Shown one piece after another: positions 827-4,618 of a stretch of DNA of 64,000 bases. The notes under the pieces are model-generated. The model saw only the letters and a list, made by a program, of their open reading frames with translations, had not been told where the DNA came from and made no database searches. A program made the translations under genes and the position numbers. The DNA is from Thermoanaerobacterium aotearoense (lineage in GTDB: Bacteria > Bacillota > Thermoanaerobacteria > Thermoanaerobacterales > Thermoanaerobacteraceae), in the NCBI RefSeq assembly GCF_009905255.1, contig NZ_CP047602.1, positions 2,467,501 through 2,531,500 of the forward strand, written 5' to 3'. How positions within the stretch are numbered: position 1 is the stretch's first letter; every line of letters starts with the position of its first letter.

Positions 827-2182
827 TTATTGTGCATTTGAACTGCTCATAAGCTTTACTTTTGTACTCATGGTTCTGCCATTTCTCCAGAATGTAACAG
901 TTATCGTGTCGCCAACTTTATGCTTAGATATTATGCTTTGCAGTGCATCAAAAGTCTGTACTTTTGTTCCATCTACTGCCGTTATCACATCTCCTGCTTG
1001 AAGTCCAGCTTCATCAGCACCGCTTCCTTGCTGTACTTGCGCTATATAGAGTCCAACCGGTATATTGTACTGCGCTGCATCTTGTTGGGTTACTTCCTGT
1101 ACGCTTACACCCATCATTGGTCTTTCTACATATCCATGTTTTATCAAGTCATCTATTATAGGTTTTGCTTCATTTATCGGAATCGCAAATCCCATTCCTT
1201 CAACAGGTGTGCTTTGGCTCTGGAACATTCCAAATGGATCTTGAGTATCTGAACCACCTGTTGATGTCAACTTCACACTTGTTATCCCAACAACTTCACC
1301 ATTGCTGTTGACCAAAGGTCCACCGCTGTTACCAGGATTTATAGCTGCATCTGTCTGAATGAGGTTAACTGGTCCGTAATCGCTTTGAAGATTTCTGTTA
1401 AGACCGCTTATTATGCCTGCTGTAACTGTACCTGCAAAGCTTTCGCCGAGAGGATTTCCTATGGCAACTGCCAGATCTCCTACTTCAAGCTTTGACGAAT
1501 CACCCAATTTTGCCGGAATCAAATTTGTAGCATTTATCTTCAATACTGCCAAGTCAGTCTTTGAATCCTTTCCTATAAGCTGTGCAGGGAACTTTCTGCC
1601 ATCAGATAAATTTACTGTTATCTTAGAAGCTCCATCCACAACATGATTGTTTGTCACTATATAGCCTTGTGAGTCGATGATTATTCCTGAACCACTGCCT
1701 TCAGGCACCAGTGCGCTGCCAAATCCATTGGAATATGATACGCTTGTATCAATTCCAACAACGGAAGGACTTACAATTTTAGCTATATTGGCAATCAAGC
1801 TGTAATTGTTGTTGTCTGATGATGAAAGTGGCAAGTACCTATTTATAACCTGTGTCTGTTGCCCCAAATTAGTGTACTTCATGATTCCTGCCACAGTTCC
1901 GCCACCTATAAGTGCTGCAATCAATGCAACAGCCACAAATGAAACCAGCATCCTTCTTCTAAATCTTTTTACCATCTTGCCTAAGCTTTTTTTGTTGCTT
2001 CTAAATTCTACCCTTGGATTCGTATAGGTTCCACTTTCTTCAGCACCATATGTTGCTTTAATTTCTTGAGTGTCATCTATATTTTCGCCTTTTATGTCAT
2101 CAGAACCTAAGGCATCGTCAGTTCTAAAATTATCTATTTCATTTTCGCCTATATTTTTGTTTTGTTCATTTTCAAAATCCAT
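827..2182 (-). CDS. htrA: HtrA-like membrane-anchored serine protease with PDZ domain
   Basis: This is an envelope quality-control protease that degrades misfolded proteins outside the membrane. The 451-residue protein has an acidic cytoplasmic N-terminus (1-70), one membrane anchor (about 78-100), a trypsin-like domain with catalytic His180 (NNHVVDG), Asp210 (KTDLAVL) and Ser286 (GNSGGPL), and a C-terminal PDZ domain (about 355-445). The longest frame starts seven codons earlier, but AGGAGG sits nine bases before the chosen ATG and inside the longer frame. It lies beside a sensor kinase/response regulator pair in the same orientation, as B. subtilis htrA genes are controlled by CssRS; its promoter carries a direct-repeat box shared with a neighbouring small-RNA promoter. 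Confidence 0.93.
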   Translation of the reverse strand: MDFENEQNKNIGENEIDNFRTDDALGSDDIKGENIDDTQEIKATYGAEESGTYTNPRVEFRSNKKSLGKMVKRFRRRMLVSFVAVALIAALIGGGTVAGIMKYTNLGQQTQVINRYLPLSSSDNNNYSLIANIAKIVSPSVVGIDTSVSYSNGFGSALVPEGSGSGIIIDSQGYIVTNNHVVDGASKITVNLSDGRKFPAQLIGKDSKTDLAVLKINATNLIPAKLGDSSKLEVGDLAVAIGNPLGESFAGTVTAGIISGLNRNLQSDYGPVNLIQTDAAINPGNSGGPLVNSNGEVVGITSVKLTSTGGSDTQDPFGMFQSQSTPVEGMGFAIPINEAKPIIDDLIKHGYVERPMMGVSVQEVTQQDAAQYNIPVGLYIAQVQQGSGADEAGLQAGDVITAVDGTKVQTFDALQSIISKHKVGDTITVTFWRNGRTMSTKVKLMSSSNAQ

Positions 2183-2216
2183 ATTCATCATCCTCCTTAT
2201 CATCTCTCATGATTAC

Positions 2217-2260
2217 ATTATAAATTAGAATTTTTAATAAACTGTGAACATATTGTAAAT
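2217..2260 (-). promoter_or_regulatory. htrA promoter with OmpR-type direct-repeat box
   Basis: Reading the minus strand, TTTACA-5-TTCACA half sites are followed 20 bases later by TATAAT (2222-2217). The 26-base stretch 2236-2260 matches the stretch before the candidate small RNA (2385-2410) with only a few differences, and the distance from box to -10 is the same in both. Hexamer repeats every 11 bases fit binding by an OmpR/PhoB-family regulator, and one is encoded next door. The poor -35 agrees with activator dependence. Binding by that regulator is inference. Confidence 0.65.
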
Positions 2261-2283: not shown

Positions 2284-2362
2284 AAGAAAAATAAATGCAG
2301 CCCGAGGGGTGGCTCGAGCTGCTATAATAAGGGAGGTCAAGGAGAGGCTTTTCTCTCTCTCG
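2284..2362 (-). ncRNA. Candidate small RNA of about 78 nt, co-regulated with htrA
   Basis: Between the sensor kinase stop and htrA lies a unit with its own promoter and terminator and no open frame. Predicted from the minus strand: a 5' hairpin (GAGAG/CTCTC stem), a CU-rich single-stranded stretch reading TTGACCTCCCTT, and a 10-bp GC-rich terminator hairpin (2297-2306 with 2313-2322) followed by ATTTATTTTT. The CCTCCC core could pair with Shine-Dalgarno sequences, as in C-rich Firmicute small RNAs such as FsrA or RoxS. Alternative: an attenuated upstream leader of htrA. No known RNA family was recognised. Confidence 0.55.
2297..2322 (-). terminator. Terminator after kinase gene and candidate small RNA
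   Basis: GC-rich 10-bp stem with one mismatch and a 6-base loop, followed on the minus strand by a T-rich tract (2296-2284). It would stop both the regulator/kinase transcript and the short transcript that starts near 2362. Confidence 0.8.
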
Positions 2363-2368
2363 ATTATT

Positions 2369-2412
2369 ATTATAACCTTAATTTATGAATAAAGTATGAA
2401 CAAATTGTAAAA
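2369..2412 (-). promoter_or_regulatory. Promoter of the candidate small RNA with direct-repeat box
   Basis: On the minus strand TTTACA, then TTCATA (2400-2395), then a 20-base gap and TATAAT (2374-2369). The whole arrangement repeats that of the htrA promoter, including the AATAAA.T.TGAACA core seen on the plus strand. Its presence downstream of the kinase gene, where no protein gene follows before a terminator, is what suggests a small RNA. Confidence 0.6.
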
Positions 2413-2420
2413 ATTTTATT

Positions 2421-3842
2421 TTACTGCTTAACTTTTTTCGCCCTCAATGTAAAAGTAAATGTAGTTCCGTCTGCATCACTACTGGTAGCCCATATATCCT
2501 CATTGTGAAGATTTATGATGCTTCTTACTATATAAAGCCCTAATCCGACACCAGGGCTGCCACTTCTGGCCTTGTCAACTTTGTAAAACCTGTCCCATAT
2601 ATGGTCAATTTCATCAGGCGGTATCGTCTTGCCCTTATTTTGGACTTTTACATGGACTTTTTCCTTCACCTTTTCTGTAGATATGTGTATATAACCACCA
2701 GGATTTGAAAATTTAATTGCATTATCTATCAAATTAGTAAGCACTTGTTCTATCTTGTCTTTATCTGCTTCTACAATTTCTTTGTCACTTTCAAAGTCCA
2801 CCTTAACCATGAGATCCTTATCGCTTATCCTTGCTTCCATCTTTATTATGGTCAGCCTTATAAGCTCGTTTATATCAAATTCTGATATATTTAAAGGGAA
2901 AGCCCCTGATTCCATCTTCGTTATATCCAAAAGTTCAGATATTAATCTGGACATGCGCCTCGTCTCTTTTTGAGCTATCTCAAGATAAAATTTGGATTTC
3001 TCTGCAGGTATAGTCCCATCCACGACTCCATCTATATAGCCTTGAATGGTTGACAAAGGCGAGCGAAGCTCGTGTGAGACATTAGCCACAAACTCTTTTC
3101 TGGCATTATCCATCCTTCCCAATTCACTTGACATTATGTTGAAGGACTTTGCCAAGTCTCCTATTTCGTCGTCATCTACAACGTTTATCTTTGTTGAAAA
3201 ATCTCCTTTTGCCATTTTTTCTGTTGCAATGCTCATCTCTTTTAAAGGATTAGAGATTCTCTTTGATGTATAAGAAATAAGTATAAATGCTATTATTATG
3301 GATATGGCTATGGCTAAAAGCATTATGAAAAATATGTCCATCAAGGTTTTCTGCATCTCTACAATAGGAGCGTGCATGAATATGGCACCTTGAATCTTCC
3401 CAGCCAGTACCAGCGGAAAACCAACAGTCAAAACAGGCTGCGTAAATCTGCCGCCAAAATATCCCCTTCTTACAATAGTCTCACCTTTTAAAATGCTTTT
3501 GATGTCATCTTTGCTTAATGTGACACCTGTCCAATTCTTTTCAAAGTTCTTCGACTGTATATATATGCGCCCGTCTGTGCTTACAACCCATATCGATGCA
3601 TTTATAAGCCTGTCAATGACATTCAAATCTTGATTAAGCCTGTCAATGTCTATGTCCCCTATGAGGTAATCGTTCAAAACGGTATTTATTTGCTTGCCTT
3701 CTTCTACCATTATCTTTTCTTTATCGCGAAAATAATAATTTTCAAACATGATGTAAAAAAGCACGGAAAGTATAGACATCGTAAGCAGTATTATTGCAAT
3801 GTTTGTGAAAAGCAGCCTTCTAAAGAGCCTATTTCTGCTCAA
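2421..3842 (-). CDS. Sensor histidine kinase (HAMP, HisKA, HATPase), CssS-like by context
   Basis: The 473-residue membrane kinase has a TM segment at about 10-32, an extracytoplasmic sensor domain, a second TM at about 167-190, a HAMP domain (190-243), the phospho-acceptor His257 in NVSHELR, and ATP-binding N (LIDNAIKFS) and G boxes (GVGLGLYI). The start codon is TTG, fixed by GAGGTG upstream; the TTG begins one base after the regulator's stop codon, so the pair is translationally coupled. It would phosphorylate the upstream response regulator in response to an envelope signal. The link to secretion stress comes only from its position beside htrA; the sensed signal cannot be read from sequence. 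Confidence 0.85.
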   Translation of the reverse strand: MSRNRLFRRLLFTNIAIILLTMSILSVLFYIMFENYYFRDKEKIMVEEGKQINTVLNDYLIGDIDIDRLNQDLNVIDRLINASIWVVSTDGRIYIQSKNFEKNWTGVTLSKDDIKSILKGETIVRRGYFGGRFTQPVLTVGFPLVLAGKIQGAIFMHAPIVEMQKTLMDIFFIMLLAIAISIIIAFILISYTSKRISNPLKEMSIATEKMAKGDFSTKINVVDDDEIGDLAKSFNIMSSELGRMDNARKEFVANVSHELRSPLSTIQGYIDGVVDGTIPAEKSKFYLEIAQKETRRMSRLISELLDITKMESGAFPLNISEFDINELIRLTIIKMEARISDKDLMVKVDFESDKEIVEADKDKIEQVLTNLIDNAIKFSNPGGYIHISTEKVKEKVHVKVQNKGKTIPPDEIDHIWDRFYKVDKARSGSPGVGLGLYIVRSIINLHNEDIWATSSDADGTTFTFTLRAKKVKQ

Positions 3843-3843
3843 A

Positions 3844-4527
3844 TCATTTCACCTCGAATTTATATCCCACACCCCATACAGTTGTTAGTTTCCAGTTCGG
3901 ACCATCCCCTATTTTCTCTCTCAAACGTTTTATGTGTACATCCACAGTTCGACTATCGCCCATGTACTCGTATCCCCATACGTTTTCTAACAGTTGATCT
4001 CTTGTAAAGACCTTATTGGGATGAGTGCACAAAAAGTAAAAAAGCTCCAATTCCTTCGGTGTAAGGTCTACATTTTCACCTTTGTATTTCACTTTGTACT
4101 CGCTTAAGCTTATAGAAAGATCAGGATATGTGACACTGTCGCCATCATTTTCCTCATGCTCATACCTTCTAAGCACAGCTTTGACACGAGCAACCAATTC
4201 TTTCCCATCAAAAGGCTTTACGATGTAATCGTCGGCGCCTATCTCCAGACCTAAAACTTTGTCAAATGTATCGCCTTTTGCTGTAAGCATTATAATAGGC
4301 ACATTCGTAAATTTCCTTACTTCTTTGCACAGCGTCATTCCATCAATGCCGGGAAGCATCAAATCAAGTATAATAAGCAAGGGGAGTTCTTCTTTTATTT
4401 TGTTTAATGCCGTAAGCCCGTCACTAATCTTCACTGTTGCAAAGCCTTCCTTTTCAAGATAAAGTGAAATTATCTCACATATATTTCTATCGTCGTCAAC
4501 TATATATATTTTTTTGTTTTCGCCCAT
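3844..4527 (-). CDS. OmpR/PhoB-family response regulator, CssR-like by context
   Basis: The 227-residue protein has a receiver domain (1-118) with acidic pair DDD near residue 11, phospho-acceptor Asp55 (LDLMLPG) and Lys in VKPFDGKE, followed by a winged-helix DNA-binding domain (130-227) ending RTVDVHIKRLREKIG. The start was moved 27 codons inward to the ATG preceded by AGAGGGGTG. It forms an operon with the kinase. The direct-repeat boxes before htrA and before the candidate small RNA are the natural targets for this type of regulator, which usually binds as a head-to-tail dimer. Confidence 0.9.
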   Translation of the reverse strand: MGENKKIYIVDDDRNICEIISLYLEKEGFATVKISDGLTALNKIKEELPLLIILDLMLPGIDGMTLCKEVRKFTNVPIIMLTAKGDTFDKVLGLEIGADDYIVKPFDGKELVARVKAVLRRYEHEENDGDSVTYPDLSISLSEYKVKYKGENVDLTPKELELFYFLCTHPNKVFTRDQLLENVWGYEYMGDSRTVDVHIKRLREKIGDGPNWKLTTVWGVGYKFEVK

Positions 4528-4551
4528 ATAAACACCCCTCTTTTTAAGACT

Positions 4552-4580
4552 ATTATACATAATTGATTTAAAAACCGCAA
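4552..4580 (-). promoter_or_regulatory. Promoter of the regulator/kinase operon
   Basis: Minus strand TTGCGG, 17-base spacer, TATAAT, 25 bases before the chosen start codon of the response regulator. No copy of the htrA-type box was seen here, so autoregulation through that box is not supported. Confidence 0.65.
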
Positions 4581-4593
4581 CGATAGATGTATA

Positions 4594-4618
4594 TATAAAA
4601 AAAGGCACCTTAGTGCCT
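4594..4618 (-). terminator. Terminator of glmU-prs operon
   Basis: A 6-bp perfect stem (AGGCAC/GTGCCT, loop of 4) overlaps the prs stop codon and is followed on the minus strand by seven T. Confidence 0.75.

Follow-up and report, generated by a model that had tools for sequence, protein, structure and literature searches.

The kinase-htrA gap

The window, i.e. the whole stretch of 64,000 nucleotides that was analysed, belongs to a genome of 2.67 Mb (G000) and carries genes for a response regulator, a sensor histidine kinase and the protease HtrA (Table 1). The listed reading frames probably begin too far upstream in two cases: position 2182, behind AAGGAGG, is a likelier start for htrA, and the true start of the response regulator is probably near 4527.

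Kinase gene and htrA both lie on the minus strand, and the gap that separates them was read directly. On this strand it contains, in order, TTTACAATTTG TTCATACTTTA TTCATA, 9 bases, TATAAT, a transcript of about 77 nt, a terminator of 10 pairs and a T tail. A preliminary description had announced here a complete short transcription unit of about 78 transcribed bases with a CU-rich unpaired stretch, and promoter, transcribed body, terminator and unpaired CCTCCC are all present, the latter within a near-invariant core. The direct-repeat box that it had placed in the promoter exists as well, as three repeats instead of a single direct-repeat pair, and a consensus -35 is absent from this promoter. 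The second box and -10 of Table 1, those of htrA, are located downstream of the RNA terminator.

Table 1. Features of the htrA-kinase region, in window positions
Feature	Position	Strand	Remark
htrA (trypsin-like and PDZ), protease gene, very probably co-regulated	827..2203	-	
htrA's own promoter, second copy of the box and TATAAT	2217..2259	-	Zero-mismatch site; kept in 20/20 genomes
T-rich tail after the terminator stem	2296-2287	-	
Small RNA, ~77 nt	2288..2364	-	Ends placed from the -10 and the terminator; kept in 20/20 family genomes
Terminator stem-loop GCAGCTCGAG CCACCC CTCGGGCTGC, 10 pairs	2297..2322	-	5/10 pairs with double-sided compensatory changes
Near-invariant core CTCTCCTTGACCTCCCTTA, two Shine-Dalgarno-complementary elements	2328..2346	-	
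Unpaired CCTCCC, part of the core	2336-2331	-	
5' hairpin UCGAG-A-GAGAG/CUCUC-CUUGA	2337..2363	-	Seen in copy A; weak or missing elsewhere
-10 of the RNA promoter, TATAAT	2369..2374	-	9 bp past the last repeat
Putative regulator box of the RNA, three 11-bp direct repeats TTTACA-N5-TTCATA-N5-TTCATA	2384..2411	-	In 26/26 copies, 20 genomes
Sensor histidine kinase (HAMP, HisKA, HATPase)	2421..3842	-	
OmpR/PhoB-type response regulator, presumed activator	3844..4608	-	

The fold energy of the small RNA is -31.5 kcal/mol, versus -15.9 +/- 3.3 kcal/mol for shuffled sequences (z -4.7). Contrary to the preliminary description, which saw no open frame, some reading frames run open through the RNA; a coding role is nevertheless argued against, since the copies described below differ by indels of 3 nt and 4 nt and their core is almost devoid of base changes. 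By sequence criteria, the RNA is a discrete non-coding transcription unit with an intrinsic terminator. The window has no gathering-level match in Rfam and contains no tRNA, and the gap gives no meaningful weak match in Rfam either.

Conservation, copies and the shared regulator box

Homologues of the RNA were sought by pattern searches in a family set of 20 genomes (Thermoanaerobacterium, with nine genomes compared in this genus, Thermoanaerobacter/Caldanaerobacter and relatives) and in a class set adding 17 others. The RNA was found in 20/20 family genomes, always between orthologues of the kinase and of htrA, although these share only 59-71% protein identity between genera. The pattern search did not find it in the other 17 genomes of the class; one of them, G010, gave two weak matches with two mismatches each, within chance expectation. 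A 17-nt piece of the core occurs in 61 genome stretches, where promoter and terminator surround it in family members only, and the search found the core in no other family of the class.

The core CTCTCCYTGACCTCCCTTA is nearly invariant, whereas between genera the coding DNA on either side retains only 51-66% identity. Between G000 and genomes of other genera, identity amounts to 92% for the 26-nt core, 61-66% for the 3' end of the kinase gene, 51-53% for the 5' end of htrA and 59% for the terminator sequence; altogether, the core retains 24-26 of its 26 bases where the neighbouring coding DNA is 51-79% identical. Poor conservation of promoter and hairpins relative to neutral sequence had been named beforehand as the finding that would speak against the RNA, and the conservation of promoter and RNA is instead far beyond chance, the flanks being much less conserved. 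Compensatory changes had been expected in both hairpins. They occur in the terminator stem, where half of the pairs have changed on both sides and 95.3% of cells are paired versus 26-44% with a slid register, and there are none for the 5' hairpin in the alignment of copies. Because this hairpin shows no covariation and is missing in the second copy, the conserved part of the RNA consists of the linear core and the terminator. Judged by this conservation, the small RNA is real and old within the family.

In total, the 20 genomes contain 26 copies: two in G000, G003, G004 and G008, three in G006 and one in each of the others. The second copy of G000, at 877 kb, has an identical 26-nt core with a different 5' end and a different terminator, and the genes downstream of it encode an HlyD/MacA-like protein, an ABC ATPase and a MacB/FtsX permease. 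Such a copy before macA is found in four genomes. CCUCCC is unpaired in every copy; a C-rich terminator loop is present only in some, and loop A is without a C-rich motif. At the macA locus (L044 3300-3380; about 877.3 kb in G000), a degenerate repeat box belonging to macA itself follows the second RNA copy, so that the layout of the htrA locus, box-RNA-terminator-box-gene, is repeated there. The two extra copies of G006, at 1.319 Mb (L070), are about 1 kb apart and near HicA/HicB-like genes.

We searched the genome for the pattern made of the box, 9 bases and TATAAT, with the reversed pattern as control. Only four zero-mismatch sites exist in G000, versus none for the control, and they belong to this RNA, to htrA, to an htrA paralogue at 898 kb and to the second RNA copy. 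The box of a third htrA paralogue is degenerate, with two mismatches, and another two-mismatch site precedes the gene of a probably secreted protein without Pfam family. The spacing between box and -10 is exactly 9 bp in 26/26 RNA copies, and the identical box with the same spacing is found before htrA in 20/20 genomes. For activators of the PhoB/OmpR type, a box at such a distance from the -10 stands in for the -35 element. The promoter of the RNA is a separate one and shares its regulator site with envelope-stress genes. Co-regulation with htrA, proposed at the outset, is strongly supported by these site distributions, and the RNA is almost certainly a regulatory one. The neighbouring response regulator is presumed to be the activator on account of its adjacency and of the type of box; another PhoB-type regulator could read the box instead.

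Candidate targets

The two elements of the RNA core, CUCUCCUU and CCUCCCUU, are complementary to Shine-Dalgarno sequences, and targets were looked for by pattern searches and in 400 kb of sampled stretches. The search for complements of CCTCCC, which the preliminary description had recommended, yielded one conserved candidate. GGGAGGTCA at 8 bases or less from an ATG occurs once in G000, before the gene of an ECF sigma factor, behind which lies an anti-sigma gene whose product has Sigma_reg_N/C domains (G000:310151-310666, minus). In this start region the Shine-Dalgarno site carries GGGAGGUCAG and codons 4-6 carry GAGAGGUUU; each block is complementary to one half of the core, and both are conserved in the 7/7 genomes of the genus that have the gene. 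Elsewhere in the genus the two-block pattern, which was set after the ECF site had been seen, matches only the antisense of the RNA genes, and its reversed control gives 0. In G006, whose ECF protein is 77% identical, the leader has changed and pairing is retained as AAGGGAGGUUAA. The first five codons are identical in six orthologues, those compared being 79-90% identical overall. In G003 (G003:C10:40606-41108) the ECF sigma gene is interrupted and its start region intact.

The predicted RNA-ECF duplex reaches -29 to -30 kcal/mol, versus a mean of -13.5 and a best value of -25.9 for 406 sampled start regions. By extrapolation of its tail, this distribution predicts that chance alone yields about one duplex of equal quality in each genome; a Gumbel fit gives 20-27, and as it describes the tail poorly the sampled distribution is also quoted. 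When internal structure is counted, copy A reaches -16.6 in G000 versus -16.7 for the best of the background, and only -11 to -12 in G005 and G006, while copy B is still the best of the sample. The ECF gene is missing from G001, G008 and the other genera, where the core of the RNA is kept, and it therefore cannot be the sole target. On these pairing and conservation data, the ECF sigma/anti-sigma operon is the best target candidate, a good one though unproven.

In Thermoanaerobacter/Caldanaerobacter, GGGAGGTC[A/G] is found in 7/7 genomes at the ribosome-binding site of a membrane-protein gene followed by the gene of a GntR-type regulator, and the A-to-G change preserves pairing. In a lipoprotein gene (L250/L267; G016, G020), GGGAGGT in the leader and GAGAGGT at the ribosome site are both complementary to the core. 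A single site complementary to the full core (16-mer, with wobble and 1 mismatch) was also looked for, and only the RNA genes and unconvincing matches inside or away from genes were obtained. GGGAGGTCAATG was dropped as a target in Thermoanaerobacter, as it seems to lie inside a coding frame. AAGGGAGGT precedes the start codons of pyrD, of a small membrane protein and of a toxin-like peptide, which were not taken as targets. This peptide of ~30 aa, MNTYETLSLMIMFGMFVIA..., is conserved (G000:2369073-2369092, minus; L183) and also found in G007 and G008.

Proposed function, alternatives and related RNAs

With a probability of roughly three in four, we propose that the RNA is a trans-acting small RNA, belonging to a family of 1-3 copies, controlled by an envelope-stress two-component system and pairing with ribosome-binding sites. 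This explanation is preferred because the four perfect boxes fall without exception at copies of this RNA (two) or at htrA genes (two). The phosphorylated response regulator would bind the three 11-bp repeats and activate the RNA together with the htrA genes; the CU-rich core (CUCUCCUUGACCUCCCUUA) would then pair with purine-rich ribosome-binding sites, and the RNA would probably block the translation of chosen mRNAs by this antisense pairing. On the ECF mRNA, the two halves of the core would pair with the Shine-Dalgarno site and with codons 4-6, leaving the start codon in the intervening loop. That the RNA shuts off ECF sigma/anti-sigma translation by such a bipartite clamp on both sides of the start codon is a tentative proposal, somewhat short of an even bet. 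A variant compatible with the general scheme is that the real targets are others, such as the membrane-protein/GntR operon of Thermoanaerobacter or lipoprotein mRNAs, and that the ECF match is coincidental. The lack of an ECF gene in part of the carriers of the core, the chance expectation of one duplex of this grade per genome and the pairing-preserving change at the membrane-protein site all favour this variant. Against it stands the ECF site, which fits the core in both halves and has been retained in all seven orthologues, a diverged one included; we give this variant a chance somewhat under one half.

An RNA that adjoins htrA on its upstream side, shares its strand and ends in a terminator could also be a cis-acting leader or attenuator, in which case it would form the beginning of a long htrA transcript whose termination at 2297 is regulated. 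However, past this terminator htrA has a box and a -10 of its own in 20/20 genomes, the copies before macA and the two extra ones of G006 lie away from htrA, no conserved antiterminator pairing was seen and hairpin 1 is not conserved, which makes this reading quite improbable. It is likewise scarcely credible that the unit, located just after the kinase stop codon, does no more than terminate the kinase operon, with a spacer that resembles a promoter but is silent: in such an element one would not expect the 26-nt core, the triple-repeat box and the constant 9-bp spacing to persist across genera, or further copies to exist at other sites behind the same promoter. A protein-binding decoy, whose CU-rich core and C-rich terminator loop would titrate an RNA-binding protein without any mRNA pairing, could account for a core that is invariant as sequence and not as structure, and for C-rich loops that recur, htrA terminators included. 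But CCUCCC is exactly anti-Shine-Dalgarno, a U-to-C change in the G006 core still pairs with G, the ECF start site carries a conserved two-block complement and the C-rich terminator loops are mostly not retained in other genera; we thus find a decoy unlikely.

Among known systems, the closest analogue of the trans-acting RNA proposed here is LhrC1-5 of Listeria monocytogenes, a multicopy, envelope-stress-induced RNA that requires LisRK and blocks a Shine-Dalgarno site with redundant CU-rich UCCC motifs (PMC4132741). Like LhrC, our RNA is short and has a single-stranded CU-rich stretch and C-rich motifs complementary to Shine-Dalgarno sites, with two stem-loops predicted in copy A and more than one copy in some genomes, and the shared box suggests that its expression depends on an equivalent of the LisRK two-component system. 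Unlike LhrC, it measures 77 nt instead of 111-114, occurs in 1-3 copies, has a single bipartite core in place of the three UCCC motifs, adjoins htrA with a common box and has a different predicted target. LhrC has no sequence or Rfam match to the RNA, being absent even among the weak Rfam matches. The C-rich small RNAs RsaE, FsrA and SprD of low-GC Gram-positives, cited in PMC4132741, resemble it by a UCCC-type motif blocking ribosome-binding sites and differ in control and context. None of them gave a significant Rfam match, FsrA reaching 13.6 bits versus a cut-off of 80.

The RNA is a new family of a known kind, sharing with LhrC a common logic and not the sequence or the motif layout; a limited literature search gave no description of such a small RNA in the Thermoanaerobacterium family. 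From sequence alone, this adds to industrial thermophiles a new regulatory RNA family with a promoter box, a small regulon and one specific testable target. Along with the C-rich envelope-stress RNA of Listeria, unrelated in sequence, it would represent a design that recurs among Gram-positive bacteria. Should the ECF target be right, one envelope-stress pathway would silence another via RNA, and a Gram-positive thermophile would rank one of its stress responses above another. RNA silencing between envelope-stress pathways is known mainly in enterobacteria. The Cpx system of Escherichia coli, a two-component envelope-stress response, makes an HtrA-type protease and CpxR-controlled small RNAs, among them the 3'UTR-derived CpxQ. 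A similar association of an HtrA-type protease with small RNAs under such a response is suggested here, with unrelated RNAs and organisms and, unlike CpxQ, an RNA that has its own promoter.

The terminator of htrA (772-807, minus) has a loop with TCTCCTCCC. The 18-nt CCAGTCTCCTCCCGCTGG recurs unchanged in G005 and, in G000, at the 3' end of an htrA paralogue (G000:45202-45219); the G006 version is almost identical. This C-rich sequence at the htrA 3' end is possibly a second, 3'UTR-derived regulatory element.
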